Assembly (NCBI GenBank): GCA_021158465.1
Contig: JAGGUN010000037.1
Coordinates: 62,001 to 126,000 of the forward strand
Origin: a bacterium
GTDB taxonomy: Bacteria; UBP14; UBA6098; 4484-93
Length of the DNA stretch: 64,000 nt
Direction: 5' to 3'
The stretch's first letter is position 1. The number at the start of each line of letters is the position of its first letter. This document shows, one piece after another, positions 1-57,099 of this stretch. The notes below the pieces were generated by a model that worked only from the letters and a program-made list of their open reading frames with translations, was not told where the DNA came from and did no database searches. The translations under genes were made by a program, and so were the position numbers.

Positions 1-2723
1 GAGAGATGACGCTTGAGTATTCCCGTCTCTTCTGGGGGATTGATAGGGACAATATTGGTCAAGGTTTTTGGGGTTATTCTCATAACCTTGACAAATTGGG
101 TGCATTTGGTATCTCGGCGGTGGTGTTCGATTCTGAGCGGTTCCGGAATGTGCGGTTCGGGCTTGGATGGTCGCATAAACTGTTTAGCTCTTCCCTTGCA
201 GATGGTTTGTCGGTTGGGTTCACTGGGAAGCTCTTTATAGATAGCTATCGGACGGAGAACTTTGAGGCTGATATGTCTGACCCTCTTCTTGCGAAGGCTT
301 CGAGGGATGTTGTTGCTCCGTCGCTTGATATTGGGCTGATTTACAGGTCGCATAGCGGCTTGTCGCTTGGCATATTCGGTCGGGACCTACTTGAACCTGA
401 TATGTCAGTTGGGTCCGACGGTTCGTCGAGGGTTCCTATGGGGATCTATGGTGGAGGTGCTTATCGCTTTTGGGACAATATGACCTGTGAGCTTGACTTG
501 GGGGTGTTGTTTGACCCTAACCGCGGTGCGACCGAGTTGGAGTATAGCCTGGGTGCTGAGTATTGGCTTCCTGGTAATCAGATAGCGTTTCGTGGAGGGT
601 TAAAGAATATAGATGAAGCAACGGCGGGTATGAGTTATCGAATGAGGAGGAGGCTTGACCTTCAGGTAGATTATGCTATGCTTTTCCCTTTGAGTGATGT
701 TGGCAGGGCGGGAGCGACGAGTCACAAGGTTTCGGTTGTGTGGCGCAGGCCGCCTCCGCCCAAATACTTTGCTGACCTAACCGTCCGGGATTCTGACCTC
801 TCGTTCTCGACCGAGCATTCGATCCTGGGTGAGAAAACGCTGTTCTTTGCCAGGGTTGAGAACATCGGAGATAAAAAAGCAAAGGGTTTCTTTGTTTCGC
901 TTTTTACTTCCCTTAATGGTGGCGATTTTGAGATGTTCGGTACCCCGTTGAGGATAAAGCGTCTCGGTCCTGGTGAGTCGAAGGAGCTTGTGTGGGAGTG
1001 GATTCCGAAGGAGCCTGGAGAATACACATTCTTCGTCAGTGTTGATGATGATGGTTCGAGCTTCCCTGAGCCGGTAGGCACGGTTGATGAACTGGATGAG
1101 AATAACAACACAGCAAAGACATCCCGAGCGGTTTTGAAGCGTCCTGAGGGGAACATAGAGATAGAGCCGAATCTGCTCACGCTTGTCAAGACTACGACGG
1201 TTGTTGAGGAGCGTCCGATGGTACCTGTGTTTTTCTTCCCAAGGCACTCGGATAAGGTTGATGCTCGCTTCGAGGAGATGGCAAGGGTCATACGCTATCG
1301 GCTAAAGAACAATCCGGATATAGGAATCAGGCTCAAGGGTTACTATAATCCGCTCAATGACGAGGTCTACGACTACAAGTCCGGTAAGAAGCTTGCCATC
1401 CGGAGAGCGGAAGCGGCAAAGGATTTCCTTACGAGGGAATATCCGGATATCGCTGACAGGATAGAGGTTGTTCGGGATGGCTACAATTTTGCTCGCTTCT
1501 GGGCATCGGATTCCACGGGTGCTGATAAGACCACTGACCAGCTTCTTGTGGATGCCGAGAACCGCCGTGTGGAGATTGAGGTTGTTACTCCAAATCTCCC
1601 CGAGATAGAAGCAGGTTTTATCCCTGGTTCCTCATCGATCAAGAGATTGGAGATACCAGGTTCCTATATCTCTCGTCTTCGGGGGTTCCTTAATAGGAAC
1701 CCTGAGCTTATTGTTCTCTGTGAGGGTGGGCTTGGTAAAGGTGAAAAGGGCGAGCATCTCGCTTTCACTCGTGCCGTTGCCTTGAAGGACACCCTTACGA
1801 AACTCATAGGTGAGCAGTATTCTGAGCGTGTTTTTCTCGGCACAGCGGACACGGTTGGCGATGCCCCGTACGGTGTTATTGCTCTCGTCGGAGAAGGGCT
1901 CATTTACCGTCCTGTTGAGGGGGGGCTTGTCTCTACGAGCACGGATATTGACAACCCGTTCACCGATGTGTATGTAGAGTATGATGTCCCAGCTGGTGTT
2001 CGTCGGCACAGGATAGAGGTGAGGGAGCATGGAACTGATTCGGTCTTCACTGTCTTGAGGGAAGGAGACGGTCCACCGCCAAAGGTCATCCGCTGGGACT
2101 GGGCAAATGAGAATGGAAATCTGATAGACCCGCACAAGCAGTATTATCTATATGCTTTCCTCGAGGATAGTCTTGGCCAGGTGGCGAGCTTTGTCTCCGA
2201 TACTATTACCACCGAGATAGTTGAGCGTGAGAGGGCGGTTGAGGAGCTGATTATTGTTCAGTTTAACTTTGACACATCCGCTGCTACCAACCGTTTTCAG
2301 GAGGCTCGACTTGAGCATATAGCAAGGAAACTTATCTCGAAGGCAACTGCTCCTCATAGGGAGATAGTGGCAACTGTCCATGGGCACACCGATACAATCG
2401 GGCTTACCTTCCGCAATAACGAACTCTCACTTATGCGGGCAAAGGTGGAGGAAGCTAAGCTTAGAGAGTATCTTATGTATCTTCTGGGGTTCTCATCGAA
2501 GGGTGAGCTTTCCAGATGGCTCTGGCGTCATCGGATCAGGCTTACCTATGAGGGGAGGCGAGATAAGGAACCTTTTGTTGTGAATATGTGGCGGAACGGG
2601 AAGCTTGAGAAGGTAAAGCTCGGTAACGACCTTCTCCCTGAAGGGCGAGCGGTGAACCGCCGGGTTATGATAACGATCGAGAGTGTAACCGAATACAGGA
2701 AACAAAGGGAACAGCAACCATAG
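1..2723 (+). CDS. Outer-membrane barrel / CARDB / triple OmpA protein, 5' end outside window
   Basis: The reading frame is open to the left edge. The first ATG (6) aligns with about residue 56 of the paralogue at 49718-52495, so signal peptide and barrel start lie upstream and this ATG is probably internal. Visible order: PorV-like beta-rich barrel (to about residue 250), a CARDB-type adhesion domain (about 255-375, with a DELDENNN motif), an OmpA-like module (about 405-530, ending in ENRRVEIEV), a weaker OmpA-like module (about 545-630), an FlgD-type Ig segment (about 660-735) and a C-terminal OmpA module with GHTD (about 750-900) ending NRRVMITIE. OmpA modules bind peptidoglycan, so the protein probably ties the outer membrane to the wall. 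Its own upstream partners are outside the window. The architecture is clear; the role is inferred. Confidence 0.85.
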   Translation, partial: EMTLEYSRLFWGIDRDNIGQGFWGYSHNLDKLGAFGISAVVFDSERFRNVRFGLGWSHKLFSSSLADGLSVGFTGKLFIDSYRTENFEADMSDPLLAKASRDVVAPSLDIGLIYRSHSGLSLGIFGRDLLEPDMSVGSDGSSRVPMGIYGGGAYRFWDNMTCELDLGVLFDPNRGATELEYSLGAEYWLPGNQIAFRGGLKNIDEATAGMSYRMRRRLDLQVDYAMLFPLSDVGRAGATSHKVSVVWRRPPPPKYFADLTVRDSDLSFSTEHSILGEKTLFFARVENIGDKKAKGFFVSLFTSLNGGDFEMFGTPLRIKRLGPGESKELVWEWIPKEPGEYTFFVSVDDDGSSFPEPVGTVDELDENNNTAKTSRAVLKRPEGNIEIEPNLLTLVKTTTVVEERPMVPVFFFPRHSDKVDARFEEMARVIRYRLKNNPDIGIRLKGYYNPLNDEVYDYKSGKKLAIRRAEAAKDFLTREYPDIADRIEVVRDGYNFARFWASDSTGADKTTDQLLVDAENRRVEIEVVTPNLPEIEAGFIPGSSSIKRLEIPGSYISRLRGFLNRNPELIVLCEGGLGKGEKGEHLAFTRAVALKDTLTKLIGEQYSERVFLGTADTVGDAPYGVIALVGEGLIYRPVEGGLVSTSTDIDNPFTDVYVEYDVPAGVRRHRIEVREHGTDSVFTVLREGDGPPPKVIRWDWANENGNLIDPHKQYYLYAFLEDSLGQVASFVSDTITTEIVERERAVEELIIVQFNFDTSAATNRFQEARLEHIARKLISKATAPHREIVATVHGHTDTIGLTFRNNELSLMRAKVEEAKLREYLMYLLGFSSKGELSRWLWRHRIRLTYEGRRDKEPFVVNMWRNGKLEKVKLGNDLLPEGRAVNRRVMITIESVTEYRKQREQQP

Positions 2724-48987: not shown

Positions 48988-49626
48988 ATGCCTGAAGGGG
49001 GTGAGATTGTTCAACAGCCCCGGAAGACCACAAGTGGACTGGCGGTAGCATCGCTTGTATTGGGTATTCTTGCTGTATTAACAGGCTGGATTGTTGTAGG
49101 TGGGGTTCTTGGCATCCTGGCTATAATCTTTGGTGCTGTCTCCCTGTCAAATATAAAGAAGGACCCGAGCAAAACTGGTAAGGGAATGGCAATTGCTGGA
49201 CTTATAACCGGAATTATCGGGGTTATAATAACGGTGGTTGTTTTGTTTCTTGTTACCAGCACGGGCTTTCTGATTTCGAGGTTCACAAGAGCAAGTGAGG
49301 AGGCGAGGGTCTCGGAGGCAAAAATGATACTTAAGCAGCTTTGGACGCTTTCCCAGACATATTATGAGGAGTATGGTTACTTTCCTGTCGATAGGGAATT
49401 TCAGCTCACGGATGAGTTTGGCTGGGCGTCCGATGAAGCAGAAAGCCTGGCTGAGCAGATGGGGTTTTCCTTGCCCTCTGGTGAGCGAAGGTTCAATTTT
49501 TACCTTTTGCCGGATGGTGGTGCAAGGGCTACACCAAATCTCAATGCTCGTGGAAAGCTCCGAAGCGTAACAGATATTGTTATTGATGGAGAAGGGAATA
49601 TCACTGGCGGGCTATTTTTAGAGTAG
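48988..49626 (+). CDS. DUF4190 membrane protein with pseudopilin-like tail
   Basis: 212 residues. A DUF4190 unit with two transmembrane helices (about 15-50 and 65-95) has the signature GLAVASLVLGILAVLTGW ... GAVSLSNIKKDPSKTGKGMAIAGLITGIIGV. The rest reads ASEEARVSEAKMILKQLWTL, SQTYYEEYGYFP and NFYLLPDGGARATPN, the alpha1-C/beta layout of type IV pilin and GspG-like globular domains. It may be a membrane-embedded pilin-like subunit that never needs prepilin cleavage. The gene precedes tRNA-Gly by 14 nt. Confidence 0.7.
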   Translation: MPEGGEIVQQPRKTTSGLAVASLVLGILAVLTGWIVVGGVLGILAIIFGAVSLSNIKKDPSKTGKGMAIAGLITGIIGVIITVVVLFLVTSTGFLISRFTRASEEARVSEAKMILKQLWTLSQTYYEEYGYFPVDREFQLTDEFGWASDEAESLAEQMGFSLPSGERRFNFYLLPDGGARATPNLNARGKLRSVTDIVIDGEGNITGGLFLE

Positions 49627-49717: not shown

Positions 49718-52495
49718 TTATTTCCCGACAAACTCTATCTCAACACGTCTGTTGGCTATCCTGCCTGCCGGGGTTCTGTTATCACCGTAGAGAATTTCGG
49801 TAAGATTTTCTCCCTGCCATCTGTTGATATGATATGGCTTGCTGTCGCTGTATCCTTTCGGGATAATCTGTGTCCTGTGAGCGGTGAGGAAATCGTTTAG
49901 GTCTTTTGTCCCTTTGAGATTCTCATACAGTATGAAGTATCGCTTGAGGTTATTCAGCTGTTCTTCGGCTCGTCTTTGTGATAATCTCTCGTTTCCGGCT
50001 TTCACCCCGACATTATCCGTATGCCCGGCGACGATTACCTTCTTCGGTGAGTCTGTTCTCTCTATCCTTGCGAGTATCCTCTTTGCCATCCTCTGGAGGC
50101 GTGCATCGTTGTATTCTGCCTCACTCTTTGTTCCCCCAAAGATAAACTGCACGAGTATAAACCGCTCGCTCAATTCCTCACGGTTTTTTACCTCCACATG
50201 GAGGGCTTCTGTTGTATCTGCCGCTGTCTGTCCTGCCTCGTCGGTAGCGCTCAGGATGGCGAAATAGGTTCGCTCGGGGTCGGCAAAACTCCCATCAGGT
50301 AGTTTCCAGTCCCAGGAAAGCCTTTCTTTGAGCCTCTTTCCGCTTGCAAGCTTGAGAATGCTGTGTCCCTGGTCGTCTATTATCGTCACGGTAAATTTTT
50401 CTGGTTTCAGTTCGCCTTTGAATTTTGTATGGAAGCTGACACGGTTGAACTCCGGGTCGACCTCGAAATCTTTGTGCAGTTTTTTCCTCTTTGGGGGGTT
50501 GTAGAATATCCCGTCGGCAGTTAGCTTAAGTGATATGTTGAGCGGTTCCTCGATTGTTCTTTCCCCTCTTATGTAAGCTCTTCTTGCAATCTCTTCAGGA
50601 AGGCTCTTGCGGAACTCCTCTGCAAAGAAGAGTAACGAATCCACAAGATCGATCGTTGGATAGTTTCCTCTTGCTGTTATCTCCAGTTCGATGTCTGGAT
50701 TCCGTGAGAATATGTTGGATAGCTCGTCCAGCTTATCCTCTGTGAGTGGTGGGACGAGGGTAATCTCTGGTGGCAGGAGTGTTAGTTCCACCCTTCGATT
50801 TTCCTCTGCCACAAGATGCTTGCCCCTTCTTGTTCCTTCGAAGTCCTGCTTCTCGACGCGCCTTTCCCACGGCTTGTATGACGATATGTCCGCAACGGTT
50901 ATCTGGTCTTCTATCTTTGGGAATTGCTCGACAAACTTCTTCCGGACGAATTCTGCGCGTCTGTATGCCAGTTTCTCGCCCTCTGCCTTATCTCTGATGC
51001 TATCACCTATGGTATCGTAGAAGCCTGTAATCAGGAGTTTTACATCGGGGTTTCTTGCGAGTCGTTCACCTATAATCTTGATAGTCCTTTCCGAGTGGTC
51101 TATCTGTGTGTCCTCTGGCGGTGGGAGTAGTAGCGCCTTTCTGCTCTGAAAGAACAAGAGCGGGACAATCGGCTCATCCTCGATGATTGAGGCGACCTGT
51201 GTCAGCTTCAGAACGGGCTTTTCTGCCGTGATCGAGACAGTTGGTCTCGGGTATATGTGGAATCTCGCTGTCTTTGAGTTGTCGTCTTTGTATATCTCAA
51301 GATTCTCATTATTCGGGTCTGCTGTGGCGGTCAGTTCTATGTCGCCTGAATTTTCTGGCACAAACTCAAACTTGTGGATTTTCTTTTCTCCCTCTTTCAG
51401 CCCATGGAGCCTCTCTTTTATCGCTGTATCAGGGAGTGAAAGCTCTATCTCGAATGCGCCTATATCCTTTTTCCCGTTATTCTCGAGTGTTATCTCAAGC
51501 GGCACAGGTTGTCCGGTTATCGGTTTGTCGGATTTTGCCTTGATGTCGACGATTTTTATGTTTGGGTATTGAGGGAGCGGTTTTCTGAACCGGTATCCGA
51601 TGCTTATCCTGTGTGTTGTTCCTATTGAGAACGGGATTATGAGGCTATATTCGACGAATATTCCTCCTTTCTCCCTTGCCGTAAAGTATGTTGCTCCTAT
51701 CCCGCCGAATAGCCTGTTTACTCCGCCTCTGGCTACAAGTTTGCTATCTAAGAAGTATGCTTCTATCCCAGCTGCGGGGTTTATCCGCTCATCCACCGGT
51801 AGGTTGGGGTCGTTTGAGTACTCGATATTTGTGTATATTCTTGCCAAGTCGCGTATATCGAAGCTTGCGCCGAGATTAGCTTCGAGAGGGACGGGGCTTT
51901 TCTCCTCATCGGATAGCGCTATACTTGGCTGGTTAGCATCCTTTAAGAATGCTCCGATACAGAGATTTCTCTTCCTGAAGATTACCCCGAGGTCGAATGA
52001 GAATACCCCTTTTGAATAGCCGTATTCCAAGAACAGCGGGTCGTCTGGGTTTTCCAGGCGGAACTTCTCCTTGATATAGTCCTCCATAAGGTATTTTATT
52101 CTCACTCCGGCAAATGTTCCCCATCGGGCTTCGTCTGCCTCAATTGTTTTCGGTGAAAGTAGCCTCGTCGATGCGGAGAGAGAGAATGTCTTTTCCTGTT
52201 GCATTTCATTCCCAAGAAGGCAGAAGGATGCTCCGATGGAGTGTGGGAAGAGATGGAAGAACCCGCCGACACTCTGCTGGTAGATATCTGTTTTTGCTCC
52301 CAGGTACAGCCTGCTGTAGTCTATGATAACAAAGCTCCTCTTTGCTGGTCCCATACCTGCTGGGTTGTAGAAGGCTGACGAATAGTCCCAGCTTGCTCCT
52401 ACCGATGAGTTTCCGAGTGAGCTTTTGCCGGAAAACCCTATCTGCCCGCAAAGTGGTGTAGGCAAAAGGAATAGAATAAGAATGAGCCTTCTCAT
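49718..52495 (-). CDS. Outer-membrane barrel / CARDB / triple OmpA protein
   Basis: 925 residues, full length, paralogue of the partial gene at the window start. A signal peptide (about 1-17) is followed by a PorV-like barrel (about 20-305, with SSAFYNPAGMG). Then come a CARDB-type domain (about 312-420), a first OmpA module (about 450-570), a weaker one (about 575-640), an FlgD-type Ig segment (about 685-755) and a last OmpA module with AGHTDNVG and NRRVEIEF. It is the last gene of a pilin-like/PilM/PilN-O operon, 2 nt after its neighbour. It could be the outer-membrane and peptidoglycan end of that complex; this is inferred from gene order. Confidence 0.88.
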   Translation of the reverse strand: MRRLILILFLLPTPLCGQIGFSGKSSLGNSSVGASWDYSSAFYNPAGMGPAKRSFVIIDYSRLYLGAKTDIYQQSVGGFFHLFPHSIGASFCLLGNEMQQEKTFSLSASTRLLSPKTIEADEARWGTFAGVRIKYLMEDYIKEKFRLENPDDPLFLEYGYSKGVFSFDLGVIFRKRNLCIGAFLKDANQPSIALSDEEKSPVPLEANLGASFDIRDLARIYTNIEYSNDPNLPVDERINPAAGIEAYFLDSKLVARGGVNRLFGGIGATYFTAREKGGIFVEYSLIIPFSIGTTHRISIGYRFRKPLPQYPNIKIVDIKAKSDKPITGQPVPLEITLENNGKKDIGAFEIELSLPDTAIKERLHGLKEGEKKIHKFEFVPENSGDIELTATADPNNENLEIYKDDNSKTARFHIYPRPTVSITAEKPVLKLTQVASIIEDEPIVPLLFFQSRKALLLPPPEDTQIDHSERTIKIIGERLARNPDVKLLITGFYDTIGDSIRDKAEGEKLAYRRAEFVRKKFVEQFPKIEDQITVADISSYKPWERRVEKQDFEGTRRGKHLVAEENRRVELTLLPPEITLVPPLTEDKLDELSNIFSRNPDIELEITARGNYPTIDLVDSLLFFAEEFRKSLPEEIARRAYIRGERTIEEPLNISLKLTADGIFYNPPKRKKLHKDFEVDPEFNRVSFHTKFKGELKPEKFTVTIIDDQGHSILKLASGKRLKERLSWDWKLPDGSFADPERTYFAILSATDEAGQTAADTTEALHVEVKNREELSERFILVQFIFGGTKSEAEYNDARLQRMAKRILARIERTDSPKKVIVAGHTDNVGVKAGNERLSQRRAEEQLNNLKRYFILYENLKGTKDLNDFLTAHRTQIIPKGYSDSKPYHINRWQGENLTEILYGDNRTPAGRIANRRVEIEFVGK

Positions 52496-52497
52496 GA

Positions 52498-53376
52498 CTA
52501 CACAGAGTACACGGCGAGGCTGATGGTGAAGCTAAAACCTCCTACTACCTTTTCTATTCCGAACCCTTCTACCTCGATGAGTTTCTCGCTCCTGTTGAGT
52601 TCTCTGATGAACTGGATGATTGCATTGGGCTTTCCAGTTCCGCGGATGACGAACGAGAGTTTCTTCCCCAACGGGGTTTTTTCCTCCTTGTATTTGGGGA
52701 ATGAAAGGAGATCGACACCAAGTCTTTTTGCCTCTTCTATGATAGATTGGGTAAAGTTGTCGATGAGGTATTCCGGCACCACTCCATCTTGGAGGACTAC
52801 GGTGCTTGGAACCTCGTATAGCGGTGCAATCCGCTTCGAAATAAGGACAAACTCTGTTCCTGTTCTTCTTCTCTTCTCCACGAGGGGTGAAAAGGGTAGT
52901 CCTTTCAGGTAACCACCTGTTGTGTCTGTGGTTGAGCCTTCGATATACAGTGCGGGTGCTTCTATATTGAAACACAGCCGATTAAAGGGCAGCGGGATGC
53001 TATCCAGGACCTGGAGGTATCCTAAGAGTGCAGCTCTTCTTTCATACAGGGTTTTGATTGGAGAACTGCTCGCCTCTGGTGGTTTGGTGGCGACTGGAGT
53101 GGGTGTAACCTGCGCTGTGGTCTCCACAGGGATGGTGGTTGTTTCCACGGGTGCAGCTGGAACCCGTGTTGTTGTATCAGCTTTTGCAACCTCTTCCTTT
53201 TCTGGTTTCTTCGACTCTTCTTTTATCTTTGGTGCAAGGAGGTATAATCCACCGAATAGCGCCATTACCGCAGCCACGGGGATAATCAGGTATATTGGTT
53301 TAAACGGCAGTTCCTTTTTCGGTTTTGGGGTTTCGGGTGGTGGTGTCCAGAGGTTGAATTTGATGATGTCGGTCAT
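52498..53376 (-). CDS. PilN/PilO-like inner-membrane protein
   Basis: 292 residues from the ATG at 53376, which overlaps the PilM-like stop as ATGA; a longer frame upstream is unlikely. It opens TDIIKFNLW, like the short cytoplasmic PilN tail that binds PilM, then has one transmembrane helix (about 28-48). A Thr/Pro/Val-rich linker (about 60-105) and a helix (LYERRAALLGYLQVL) follow. The final alpha/beta domain ends IQFIRELNRSEKLIEVEGFGIEK, the ferredoxin-like fold pattern of PilO/PilN. It looks like a fused PilN-PilO, placing it in the periplasm between the PilM-like protein and the OmpA protein. Confidence 0.62.
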   Translation of the reverse strand: MTDIIKFNLWTPPPETPKPKKELPFKPIYLIIPVAAVMALFGGLYLLAPKIKEESKKPEKEEVAKADTTTRVPAAPVETTTIPVETTAQVTPTPVATKPPEASSSPIKTLYERRAALLGYLQVLDSIPLPFNRLCFNIEAPALYIEGSTTDTTGGYLKGLPFSPLVEKRRRTGTEFVLISKRIAPLYEVPSTVVLQDGVVPEYLIDNFTQSIIEEAKRLGVDLLSFPKYKEEKTPLGKKLSFVIRGTGKPNAIIQFIRELNRSEKLIEVEGFGIEKVVGGFSFTISLAVYSV

Positions 53377-54308
53377 ACAGTTCCCTCGATTGCGAGTCCG
53401 ACAGGGACAAGCCATTCGTCGATATCGTTCTCCTCGTATCCCACCTGTTTTGCAACATGGCTAAGGTCCACCAGTGGAATGTTTATTGCAGCAGAGAGCA
53501 GTTTTCCGAACTGTGATGTTGCACCGACCTTTCCGGTTACAAGAAGCCCCTCGAACTTGTGCTTGGTTGGGGAGAATCCGAGGCTCTTTGTGATAACGGT
53601 AAAGACCGGCAAGAACCCCTGAAGATAATCGTTGTTGCTGGTGGTTTTGATGAAGAAATGCCCGATGTATTTGAATCTCCCGTCGATCACAACAGAGACC
53701 GATGTGAACTGCTCGTCTATTACCATCATTAGAAGGTTTTTTGAATATTTCCTGTTGAAATAGGTAAATGCGTTATGCATGGCGATGGCGGATGGCTCAA
53801 CGCCTTTTGGGGATACCCCTGCAAGTCTGAGCAGTTCTATTCTCTGGGATATGATCTTCTTTGGGACTGCTGCTCCGTAGATGGATTTATCGTTTATCGA
53901 GAACCAAGAGACCGCATACTGCTCCACAGGTTTTATAAGGTAGTGCGATAGCTCCCAGTTCATCCAGTCAGGGACGATTTCTGGCAGTTCTGGTGGGATA
54001 GCAAACTCCTTTATGACGGTGAACTGGTCTGGGATATTAACATATCCTGCGGATGTCTTTATTCCTGCTCGGGTTATGAGGTCCATCGTGTAATCGCCAA
54101 GCTGTTCTGCTCTCGTAACGATTCCCCTGTGGAGCATACCGCTTGAGAATTCTCCTCGAACCCTATTCAAGAGCAGGATCTCTTCCATAGTAAAACCAAG
54201 CTCTACAACCTTCACTACATTCTCGAATAGGGCAATGCCGAGTGTTCTGTTCCTTATCTTTCCTGCTGCTTTTTTCTGCTTTGTTCCGCTGGCAACGGTT
54301 TTTTTCAT
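53373..54308 (-). CDS. PilM-like actin-fold protein
   Basis: 311 residues from the ATG at 54308, 4 nt after the pilin-like gene stops; earlier ATGs lie inside that gene. A basic N terminus precedes TLGIALFENVVKVVEL, which corresponds to the VGIDIGSSSVKVVEL start of PilM but with the phosphate-binding DIGS lost. NIPDQFTVIKEFAIPP, MNWELSHYLIKP and GVEPSAIAMHNAF match PilM landmarks, and LLVTGKVGATSQFGKLLS resembles the late GGGA region. ATP binding is therefore doubtful. In type IV pili PilM forms a cytoplasmic ring bound to PilN; a similar role is inferred. Confidence 0.65.
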   Translation of the reverse strand: MKKTVASGTKQKKAAGKIRNRTLGIALFENVVKVVELGFTMEEILLLNRVRGEFSSGMLHRGIVTRAEQLGDYTMDLITRAGIKTSAGYVNIPDQFTVIKEFAIPPELPEIVPDWMNWELSHYLIKPVEQYAVSWFSINDKSIYGAAVPKKIISQRIELLRLAGVSPKGVEPSAIAMHNAFTYFNRKYSKNLLMMVIDEQFTSVSVVIDGRFKYIGHFFIKTTSNNDYLQGFLPVFTVITKSLGFSPTKHKFEGLLVTGKVGATSQFGKLLSAAINIPLVDLSHVAKQVGYEENDIDEWLVPVGLAIEGTV

Positions 54309-54312
54309 ACCA

Positions 54313-54738
54313 CTATTTTTCCCAGGAGGCTTGTCCGTTGACAATGGCGCCATACCCGTTTGGGTCAACGATGACGAAGTATGATGAGTCTCTGGCAAAT
54401 ATAATAAATTCACTACTATCCTTTGGGGAGACAGGGTGGAACCCCTCCGGCAGGAACGGTTTCAACGAATCAAAACTTGTGGTGTAGAGGTGTGGATGAA
54501 CAGCTGGCTGTGTTGCTTTTGCCTCTCCTGTTGTGTCTGCTTCGCTTGGCGGAACGCCTCCAGTAGAGAAGTACCTTAGCTCAGCCTCGGATAAGAGTTT
54601 CATTCTCTCTCGGGTCTCTTTCTCCAAGAACTCTTTTCTCTCCTGGCGTGCCTTTGGGATGAGAAGTGCTGCGATAACTCCTATACCCAGAACAATTATC
54701 AGGGCATCGAGCAGAACAGATTGGAACTTCTGGGACAT
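54313..54738 (-). CDS. Uncleaved pilin-like protein
   Basis: 141 residues. The N-terminal helix LLDALIIVLGIGVIAALLIP aligns with the type IV pilin helix from Glu5 to Pro22. Glu5 is replaced by Asp11, and the Gly before the prepilin cut is Gln6, so PilD-type processing is unlikely. The rest of the helix is charged (KARQERKEFLEKETRERMKLL), and the globular part (about 75-141) is beta-rich with DSSYFVIVDPNGYGAIVNG. It leads a four-gene operon with a GGAGG ribosome site and an upstream promoter. Confidence 0.6.
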   Translation of the reverse strand: MSQKFQSVLLDALIIVLGIGVIAALLIPKARQERKEFLEKETRERMKLLSEAELRYFSTGGVPPSEADTTGEAKATQPAVHPHLYTTSFDSLKPFLPEGFHPVSPKDSSEFIIFARDSSYFVIVDPNGYGAIVNGQASWEK

Positions 54739-54784
54739 TTTGCCTCCTTTAGGGGGTTATATTTATCTACTCCGCTTCTAAAGA

Positions 54785-54812
54785 AATAAATCAAATTTGG
54801 GCGGTTTGTCAA
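54785..54812 (-). promoter_or_regulatory. Candidate promoter of the pilin-like operon
   Basis: Minus strand TTGACA (54807-54812), 16 bp, TTTATT (54785-54790), about 46 nt before the pilin-like start. Confidence 0.45.
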
Positions 54813-54840
54813 ATAAAAACTCTATTTGCTGGATATTGTA

Positions 54841-54869
54841 TTGACTTTCGGTGATGATTTTTTTATTAT
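54841..54869 (+). promoter_or_regulatory. Promoter of the secreted transglutaminase-like gene
   Basis: TTGACT (54841-54846), 17 bp, TATTAT (54864-54869). GGAGGTGG follows before the ATG at 54907. Confidence 0.6.
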
Positions 54870-54906
54870 TAAACTGCGTTACTATAAAAAGCTGGAGGTG
54901 GTAGAT

Positions 54907-57099
54907 ATGTGGCGTATATTTTTAGTCTTTGCTTTGGTCGTTCTGAGTTCGCCGGTTTTTGCCAGGGATGGGGTAACGATAAGGGAATTTCCTCCGCTTG
55001 TTTCTGTGGAGAGGGAACCTGTTTTTTGCGCTTATGAGCCGGAGAGGGCAATTTATCCTGATGTGTTTTATGAGCCTCTTCGCTGGGAGCTTGTGGACAC
55101 GGTATCTGCTCACATCATTGTTCCTCCTGGTTCGACATACTCTATTCTTGCTGATGTTTGGGATAAGTCGCTCACTGAGTATTTGCCTGAACCGTATCTG
55201 ACAGATTCTGCTCGAAGTGCGATAGAGCATTCTCCTGGCTGGCTTCGGCAAGATTTGGTAATCACATTCTCACGAATGAACGAGATATTTCAGGATATGT
55301 TTGCTGAGGTTATCCTTGAGGCTGATTCGCCGTATGTGGATGAGGTTGCTTTTTCTGTTGCGAGGATGCCAGCTGAGATCCTCTCCTGTAGTTATCTTTC
55401 CCCGGGGCTTCTTCTTGAGAACGCACAGGATATTTACTATCAGGCGAGCCTGCTCAGCTATGTTGAGCTGGTTGAGTATGGTGATTATACCACTGCTCGG
55501 TATCGCGTAGCTTCTGATGGCGACACATCCTGGGTCGAGATTCCGAGGGATATCTACTACTGGTATGTTGTTCATCCGAAGATAACCGATGAGACGCCTA
55601 TGTATCTTGACAGGTTTGTCTCGCTTGCCAGTGACCCGTTTGCGGGTTACAATGAGCCTCCGTTTGGTGCCTGGTGGCGGAGTTTTCTCTGGAGTGAGTC
55701 GGATGCGGGTTATTCACCCCTGTGTGAGTATCTTGATACGATAGATGTCCTGTGGGCGGGGCTATACAATACGATTGATGGTAATGGCGCGGTTGGGGCG
55801 GTCACGCAGTTTGTTCAGGATGTTCTCGAGTTTGATTCCGGGATGGAGAGACCTCATCAGCCGTTGAGGATATATACGCTTCATATGGGTCGCTGTGGCG
55901 AGCATGAGGATTTCACAGTTGCTGCGGCGAGGACCGCTCTCATTCCGAGCCGGGGGGCGGAGGCGATCTCCACAGACCATGTCTGGAACGAATTCTATGA
56001 TGGTTTTGGCTGGCATCAGTGGGAGCCTGTCAACACCTATATTGATGATTACTTCGTGTATGAGGACCGCTGGGGCAAGGTGTTTGCCTCTGTCTATGCT
56101 CCTCGCTCGGACGGATACACGGAGAATGTAACATACAATTATTCCCATGATACCTGTGATATAAAGGTGTATGTTTTGGACGGAGCGGGTCGACGTGTTG
56201 ACGGAGCAGATGTTATACTTGCTGCTGAGTACGATGACCATTTATATTTTGATACTTGGGGCACCACAGCCTCGAGTGGTGTTACCATTTTCAGGCTTGG
56301 GGCAGGTGTCAGGATGTATGGGCGGGTTGAGCACCCGATAGGTAGCTATCCTACCAGTCCATCGACCGTTGCGCCTCTTCTTTCTGGTCCGGGTTCAGAC
56401 GGGCGAACATACACGAGGACGATGAACATCTCATCTGGTAGGATGCCGTATCTATATTACACAGAGGCTGAGCTGCCCGACACCGCCTGGGGTATGATGA
56501 AGCTTGTGGTGGACTATTCTGTTCCATATGAGAAGGTTCTTGGAACATCCTTCTTTGATGATGTCGATGATGCGATGTATATCCAAAAGGTCGATTCTGG
56601 TTCTATCTATTTGTTTGTTCTCGATGAAGCGAACTACTCGCTCTGTCTTGCTGGCGAGCCTTTTGAGGCATACTTTGCCGAGCCGGAGGCAGATTCAGGA
56701 AGCTTTGAGTTTGTCTTTCCGAGAGAGGAGAACGTATATCTTGTTCTTTCCAACTATCCGAGGATGCGGACATACGAGGCGATCGATTTGGATGTCAAAC
56801 TGTTCGATGGAGTATCTGAGATTGCAGAGTCTTCTACTTCTCATCCGAGAGTGGTTTCCATCTCTCCTGCTTATCCTAACCCGTTCAATGCAAAGACAAG
56901 TTTCAACTATAGCATAGGAGGTTCATCTGGCAGGCTCAGGATATACAGTCTTGCGGGTGAGTGTGTGTTTGACTGCGGGATAATCGGACCTGTTGGTAGG
57001 TTCACCTGGGATGCCGGTGGGTTCCCTTCGGGGGTTTATTTTGCTTCTGTGACGGACGGGGAAAGGTCTGCCACCACACGCCTCCTCCTTTTGAAGTGA
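54907..57099 (+). CDS. Secreted transglutaminase-like protein with sorting domain
   Basis: 730 residues from the ATG at 54907, chosen for its GGAGGTGG site and because it begins the signal peptide (MWRIFLVFALVVLSSPVFA). A transglutaminase-like core has Cys330 in GRCGEHEDF and His358 in DHVWNEFY. The third position is Asn376 (EPVNTY) instead of Asp. A carboxypeptidase-regulatory-like beta domain (about 410-500) follows. The C terminus is a PNPFN sorting domain (AYPNPFNAKTSF ... FPSGVYFASV). Unlike the homologue at 20042 it keeps Cys and His, so it may be an active extracellular protease or cross-linker. Confidence 0.8.
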   Translation: MWRIFLVFALVVLSSPVFARDGVTIREFPPLVSVEREPVFCAYEPERAIYPDVFYEPLRWELVDTVSAHIIVPPGSTYSILADVWDKSLTEYLPEPYLTDSARSAIEHSPGWLRQDLVITFSRMNEIFQDMFAEVILEADSPYVDEVAFSVARMPAEILSCSYLSPGLLLENAQDIYYQASLLSYVELVEYGDYTTARYRVASDGDTSWVEIPRDIYYWYVVHPKITDETPMYLDRFVSLASDPFAGYNEPPFGAWWRSFLWSESDAGYSPLCEYLDTIDVLWAGLYNTIDGNGAVGAVTQFVQDVLEFDSGMERPHQPLRIYTLHMGRCGEHEDFTVAAARTALIPSRGAEAISTDHVWNEFYDGFGWHQWEPVNTYIDDYFVYEDRWGKVFASVYAPRSDGYTENVTYNYSHDTCDIKVYVLDGAGRRVDGADVILAAEYDDHLYFDTWGTTASSGVTIFRLGAGVRMYGRVEHPIGSYPTSPSTVAPLLSGPGSDGRTYTRTMNISSGRMPYLYYTEAELPDTAWGMMKLVVDYSVPYEKVLGTSFFDDVDDAMYIQKVDSGSIYLFVLDEANYSLCLAGEPFEAYFAEPEADSGSFEFVFPREENVYLVLSNYPRMRTYEAIDLDVKLFDGVSEIAESSTSHPRVVSISPAYPNPFNAKTSFNYSIGGSSGRLRIYSLAGECVFDCGIIGPVGRFTWDAGGFPSGVYFASVTDGERSATTRLLLLK

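Follow-up and report, generated by a model that had tools for sequence, protein, structure and literature searches.

The closest described relatives of the locus considered here are the PilM/PilN/PilO complex of type IVa pili (T4aP), the type II secretion system, the PorP/SprF and PorE components of type IX secretion (T9SS), and the ComEA/ComG competence pilus. According to a review (PMC10191384), the last residue of a prepilin leader is invariably Gly or Ala; Glu5 is frequent but not universal. In type IX secretion, complexes of PorP, PorE and a type B C-terminal domain (CTD) are known (PMC9143113). Among the papers searched, none combined PilM, PilN, PilO, type IX secretion and OmpA, and for the phylum name UBP14 only unrelated proteins called UBP14 were found among the matches listed. 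The DNA analysed here (a stretch of 64,000 nucleotides, hereafter the window) belongs to a bacterium of UBP14, a little-known bacterial phylum. It harbours four genes encoding a reduced pilus-base set and a type IX-like outer-membrane barrel, products that together probably bridge the cell envelope.

Organisation and conservation of the operon

The minus strand between positions 49718 and 54738 carries four open reading frames encoding a pilin-like protein, a PilM-like protein, a fused PilN/PilO-like protein (PilNO) and an outer-membrane (OM) OmpA protein (Table 1). The pilin and PilM genes are separated by 4 nt, the PilM and PilNO genes overlap by 4 nt (ATGA) and the OmpA gene follows PilNO after 2 nt; with such spacing, the four genes very probably constitute one operon. 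An earlier reading of the sequence alone (the sequence-only reading) had described four tightly spaced genes with no PilB, PilC or secretin beside them, and both observations are borne out. Between the two species of the window's genus (the window's species and G001), dN/dS is 0.12 for the pilin, 0.16 for PilM, 0.18 for PilNO and 0.13 for the OM protein, and purifying selection thus acts on all four genes.

Table 1. Coordinates of the operon, its domains and other genes of interest within the window
Feature	Position	Strand	Basis
Pilin-like protein, 141 aa	54313..54738	-	ORF, alignment, matches to solved pilins/GspG
AGGAGG ribosome-binding site of the pilin gene	54743..54748	-	read directly
PilM-like protein, 311 aa, ATG at 54308	53373..54308	-	profile, solved-PilM match, Foldseek
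Fused PilN/PilO-like protein, 292 aa	52498..53376	-	alignment, model, PilO 2rjz match
PorP/SprF-like barrel + CARDB + OmpA outer-membrane protein, 925 aa	49718..52495	-	domain profiles, own clade
PorP/SprF-like (FadL/PorV-type) beta-barrel, residues 42-306	51578..52372	-	PF11751 31.5 bits, cut-off 22.3
CARDB domain, residues 317-409	51269..51547	-	PF07705 40.6 bits
First OmpA-type domain, about residues 446-575	50771..51160	-	domain comparison
Degenerate OmpA-like stretch, residues 587-643	50567..50737	-	hhalign match to domain 1 at a probability of just 46%
C-terminal OmpA domain, residues 783-925, motif GHTDNVG...NERLSQRRA	49721..50149	-	domain profiles
DUF4190-pilin fusion	48988..49626	+	
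Transglutaminase-like protein with T9SS type A CTD	54826..57099	+	
PorP-CARDB-OmpA paralogue, start just ahead of the window	3..2723	+	

Conservation of the gene order in related genomes, which the sequence-only reading had proposed as a check, extends across the class. The order pilin-PilM-PilNO is found in 16 of the 17 class genomes (the exception, G016, is 59% complete), and the OM gene lies next, downstream of PilNO, in 11 of the 16 loci. The recurrence of this order, together with the low dN/dS, indicates that the operon is more than a chance arrangement. Outside the window's genus, each of the 14 loci has a ComEA-like helix-hairpin-helix (HhH) gene (HHH_3, PF12836) directly upstream of the pilin; within the genus, no such gene lies at the locus. 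Some relatives carry a T2SSK-like HhH. PilP and PilQ are absent from the class loci. G010 and G015 carry the OM gene away from the locus, and G003, G006 and G012 yielded no orthologue of it; thus, the OM protein is not indispensable to the pilin-PilM-PilNO core. In G011, a seemingly detached OM gene was attributed to a contig break, as its two ends lie on different contigs. A scan with the OmpA alignment recovered, as named relatives, UBP14_UBA6098 and metagenome-assembled genomes filed as Zixibacteria or as unclassified bacteria.

Two plus-strand genes flank the operon. The convergent one, 91 bp away, encodes a double-transmembrane DUF4190 anchor followed in the same chain by a near duplicate of the major type IV pilin of this genome, which runs from the pilin helix to the C-terminus with 55% identity over 134 aa. 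The product is a membrane-anchored pilin head devoid of a cleavage motif. The divergent one encodes the transglutaminase-like protein with a type A CTD, a homologue of which also adjoins the operon in G001.

Pilin-like and inner-membrane components

The pilin-like protein begins with MSQKFQ-SVLLDALIIVLGIGVIAALLIP..., in which Gln6 replaces the Gly ahead of the hydrophobic helix and Asp11 (mature position 5) stands in place of Glu5, both substitutions being as originally described. Its matches to solved pilins and to GspG (E 3e-4 to 2e-3) fall chiefly in the N-terminal helix. In an alignment of 16 loci, the cleavage Gly is kept in 14/14 loci outside the window's genus and is Gln in both genomes of the genus, while Asp5 is invariant (16/16). 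The class III prepilin signal (Gly or Ala before the helix, usually with Glu5) is therefore lacking in this genus, although its Gly part is present in the relatives. Judged from this alignment, the loss of Gly is a change local to the window's genus and Asp5 is class-wide. Given this invariable Gly or Ala at the end of prepilin leaders (PMC10191384), Gln6 should block cleavage, and the window's pilin is probably not processed; the ancestral pilin of the class is a plausible prepilin. The proposal of an uncleaved pilin probably holds for the window's genus, but not as the nature of the system: a pilin uncleaved by design, as a class trait, is ruled out by the Gly kept in those 14 loci. A CP...CPNGHG cysteine pair occurs in 12 of the 16 pilins; the window's genus and one other have lost it.

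The PilM-like protein scores 35.9 bits against TIGR01175, under the cut-off of 133. Its class alignment matches solved PilM over the full length (E 3e-23), and its structural model (pLDDT 86) retrieves solved PilM by Foldseek (E 4e-21), ranking above FtsA and GspL. The PilM identity put forward by the sequence-only reading is hence confirmed by both profile and fold. As that reading had also pointed out, the DIGS motif is missing, LGIALFENV occupying its place. DIGS and the later GGG motif are missing from every alignment row covering them (GG being left in one row), whereas the canonical PilM of the same genome retains both; as read from the alignment, the nucleotide (ATP-site) motifs are degenerate throughout the class. 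A profile of the PilM-like family gives 333 bits on the window's protein as against 29 bits on the canonical PilM, which marks the former as a distinct paralogue.

PilNO is one fused chain in place of separate ferredoxin-like PilN and PilO proteins. It consists of an INL-type N-terminal peptide (INLYRS in some relatives, IRLNLF or IKFNLW in others), one transmembrane helix (residues 28-53), a Pro-rich linker and two tandem alpha/beta domains (residues 106-180 and 202-291; model pLDDT 72). In a fold search, the C-terminal domain matches PilO 2rjz (probability 1.00, TM 0.62 over PilO), and weak profile matches to solved PilO were obtained. No significant profile match emerged when PilNO was compared with the single PilN and PilO sequences of the same genome, so the assignment relies on the fold search and the solved-PilO matches. 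The suggested PilN/PilO fusion is thereby upheld for its PilO half by fold; the INL peptide and the order of secondary-structure elements point to a PilN half, for which no profile match was significant.

Outer-membrane protein

The sequence-only reading had described the fourth product as a triple-OmpA protein. Two OmpA domains are clear, but the middle stretch is weak and devoid of the TD and NxxLSxxRA motifs; moreover, the protein carries an N-terminal PorP/SprF-like barrel and a CARDB domain, neither of which had been mentioned. Against NCBIfam TIGR03519, the barrel scores 34.2 bits, under the cut-off of 90.55. In a phylogenetic tree of this PorP-OmpA family, the operon-linked OM proteins, along with unlinked ones, form a clade of their own, apart from the paralogues (support 100/100).

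The same genome encodes seven more full-length PorP-CARDB-OmpA paralogues, six of which lie in clusters with large (secreted) proteins; paralogue sites are on contigs C11, C41, C36, C40 and C9 (loci L090-L095). Among five paralogue neighbours scanned, four have type-B-like CTDs (CHU_C over cut-off in two, TIGR04131 under cut-off in four). These clusters recall the SprB-SprF and PorP-PorE-type B CTD complexes (PMC9143113) and represent SprB/SprF-like pairs outside Bacteroidota with the PorE-like OmpA part built in. One of the paralogues begins just ahead of the window and extends into it, with no giant cargo gene adjoining.

Relation to the main type IVa pilus

The genome possesses a complete ordinary T4aP set: a canonical PilM-N-O-AMIN-PilQ cluster on contig C4, PilB, PilT and PilC on contig C24 and minor pilins on contig C38. 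In addition there are two further ATPases of the PilT kind, a peptidase resembling PilD, and pilins with Gly and Glu5 on C4. The sequence-only reading had counted against itself any complete PilB/PilC/PilQ set elsewhere in the genome to which its proteins clearly belonged. Such a set (with PilD) does exist, but it has its own PilM, PilN and PilO, and the window's proteins are not clearly its parts. The operon is, for the same reason, a paralogous second platform beside the main T4aP. In its neighbourhood there is no secretin or ATPase dedicated to it; to assemble anything, the second platform would need PilB, PilC and PilD borrowed from the main pilus, and such borrowing is our assumption.

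Proposed function and alternative explanations

The reading that we favour, with roughly even confidence, is that the operon encodes a dedicated alignment platform, akin to that of type IV filaments, which spans the envelope, ancestrally included a short pseudopilus and is probably static in the window's genus. In such a platform, the degenerate PilM would lie on the cytoplasmic side of the inner membrane and bind the INL peptide of PilNO, while the two periplasmic domains of PilNO would reach toward the peptidoglycan-bound PorP-OmpA barrel in the outer membrane; the pilin would be an inner-membrane protein. Across most of the class, the Gly-bearing pilin could build a short pseudopilus using PilB, PilC and PilD of the main pilus, and the HhH protein may act as its periplasmic partner. 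The Gly kept in most loci and the ComEA-like HhH gene ahead of the pilin make the ancestral unit look like a pseudopilus or pilus-accessory module. The static bridge of the sequence-only reading is accordingly not class-wide and may hold for the window's genus only. There, with the Gly lost, the HhH gene absent at the locus and the other parts under selection, a static trans-envelope tether is most likely, which would link the wall and the outer-membrane barrel with the inner membrane and the cytoplasm. The loci offer a natural series that begins with a pilin having the cleavage Gly and an HhH partner and ends with one that lacks both; along it, a pseudopilus may be becoming a static bridge.

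DNA uptake is the strongest rival owing to the HhH gene, although we consider it unlikely. Here, the operon would encode a competence pseudopilus, in which the pilin with PilM and PilNO forms a dedicated base, incoming DNA is bound in the periplasm by the HhH/ComEA-like protein and ComEC imports it. The constant position of the HhH gene outside the window's genus is consistent with this, as is ComEC in 13 of the 17 class genomes, the window's included. The explanation is weakened by three genomes that carry the HhH operon, in which ComEC was not detected (G008, 95% complete; G010, 92%; G015, 74%), and by the window's genus, which retains the operon with no HhH gene at the locus. A PorP-OmpA barrel is not known to take part in DNA uptake. 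Less probable still is that the proteins are spare subunits of the main T4aP, with PilM and PilNO forming mixed or alternative platforms and the pilin serving as a minor pilin of the same pilus. A complete T4aP elsewhere and the Gly of the relatives' pilins would suit such a role; nevertheless, the PilN/PilO fusion, degenerate ATP site, separate OM partner and loss of Gly in one genus are unlike interchangeable subunits, and the window's PilM and PilNO resemble the canonical PilM, PilN and PilO of the same genome only very slightly.

An accessory role in type IX secretion or surface-adhesin display is also improbable, somewhat more so than DNA uptake. The barrel would hold type B cargo or meet the SprA translocon, and PilM, PilNO and the pilin would be its inner-membrane partner in the place that GldL/GldM take in Bacteroidota. 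SprA was matched in 16 of the 17 class genomes, including the window's, and neither GldL nor GldM gave a match in the 17, while the GldL_N and GldM models did match the positive control, G077. Further, the OM protein resembles a PorP-PorE fusion, PorP-PorE-type B CTD complexes being known (PMC9143113), and most of its own-genome paralogues cluster with large proteins, several with type-B-like CTDs. However, no cognate type B CTD gene lies in or beside the operon (the divergent neighbour has a type A CTD), and the core persists in genomes lacking this OM protein. SprA with no GldM match is common in many other phyla, so the missing motor is not class-specific and the models may be too narrow; absence of GldL/GldM as proof of a replacement motor was ruled out on this ground. 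That the GldL, GldM and SprA models miss things is evident from G077, which has GldM yet gave no SprA match.

Beyond the favoured alignment platform, a bolder and very doubtful extension is that the alignment platform of a type IV filament has become connected to an outer-membrane module (PorP/SprF-OmpA) of the type IX kind and now supplies the envelope-spanning part of secretion of the T9SS type, or of adhesin anchoring, in a phylum with no detectable GldL/GldM motor. If the favoured reading is right, the PilMNO platform would be a portable trans-envelope module, and pilus-base proteins would be separable from secretin and ATPase and joinable to the peptidoglycan-bound barrel of another secretion system.

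Comparison with known systems

With the type IVa PilM/PilN/PilO complex, the operon shares a full-length PilM fold, an INL-like PilN peptide, a PilO-type periplasmic domain and a pilin in the operon. It differs in the fusion of PilN and PilO, the loss of the PilM nucleotide motifs, the lack of PilP/PilQ, a PorP-OmpA barrel instead of a secretin as OM partner, and its presence as a second set in a genome that also has a complete T4aP. Type II secretion (GspL/GspM/GspG/GspK) likewise shows fusion of platform subunits, an HhH-containing partner (as in some relatives) and a pilin of the GspG kind; here, however, the fusion is PilN-PilO and not PilM-PilN, PilM is a separate protein with a fold closer to PilM than to GspL, and GspD/E/F are absent. 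The ComEA/ComG competence pilus resembles the relatives' loci in placing a membrane-anchored HhH protein beside a pilin, but in the operon PilM and PilNO are present, ComGA/GB do not adjoin and, in the window's genus, the HhH gene is missing at the locus. As for PorP/SprF with PorE of the T9SS, the PorP-type barrel, the OmpA peptidoglycan-binding module and paralogues adjoining type-B-like CTD proteins are held in common; in the present operon, barrel and OmpA form one chain, which has no cargo gene and is linked to the genes of a pilus base.
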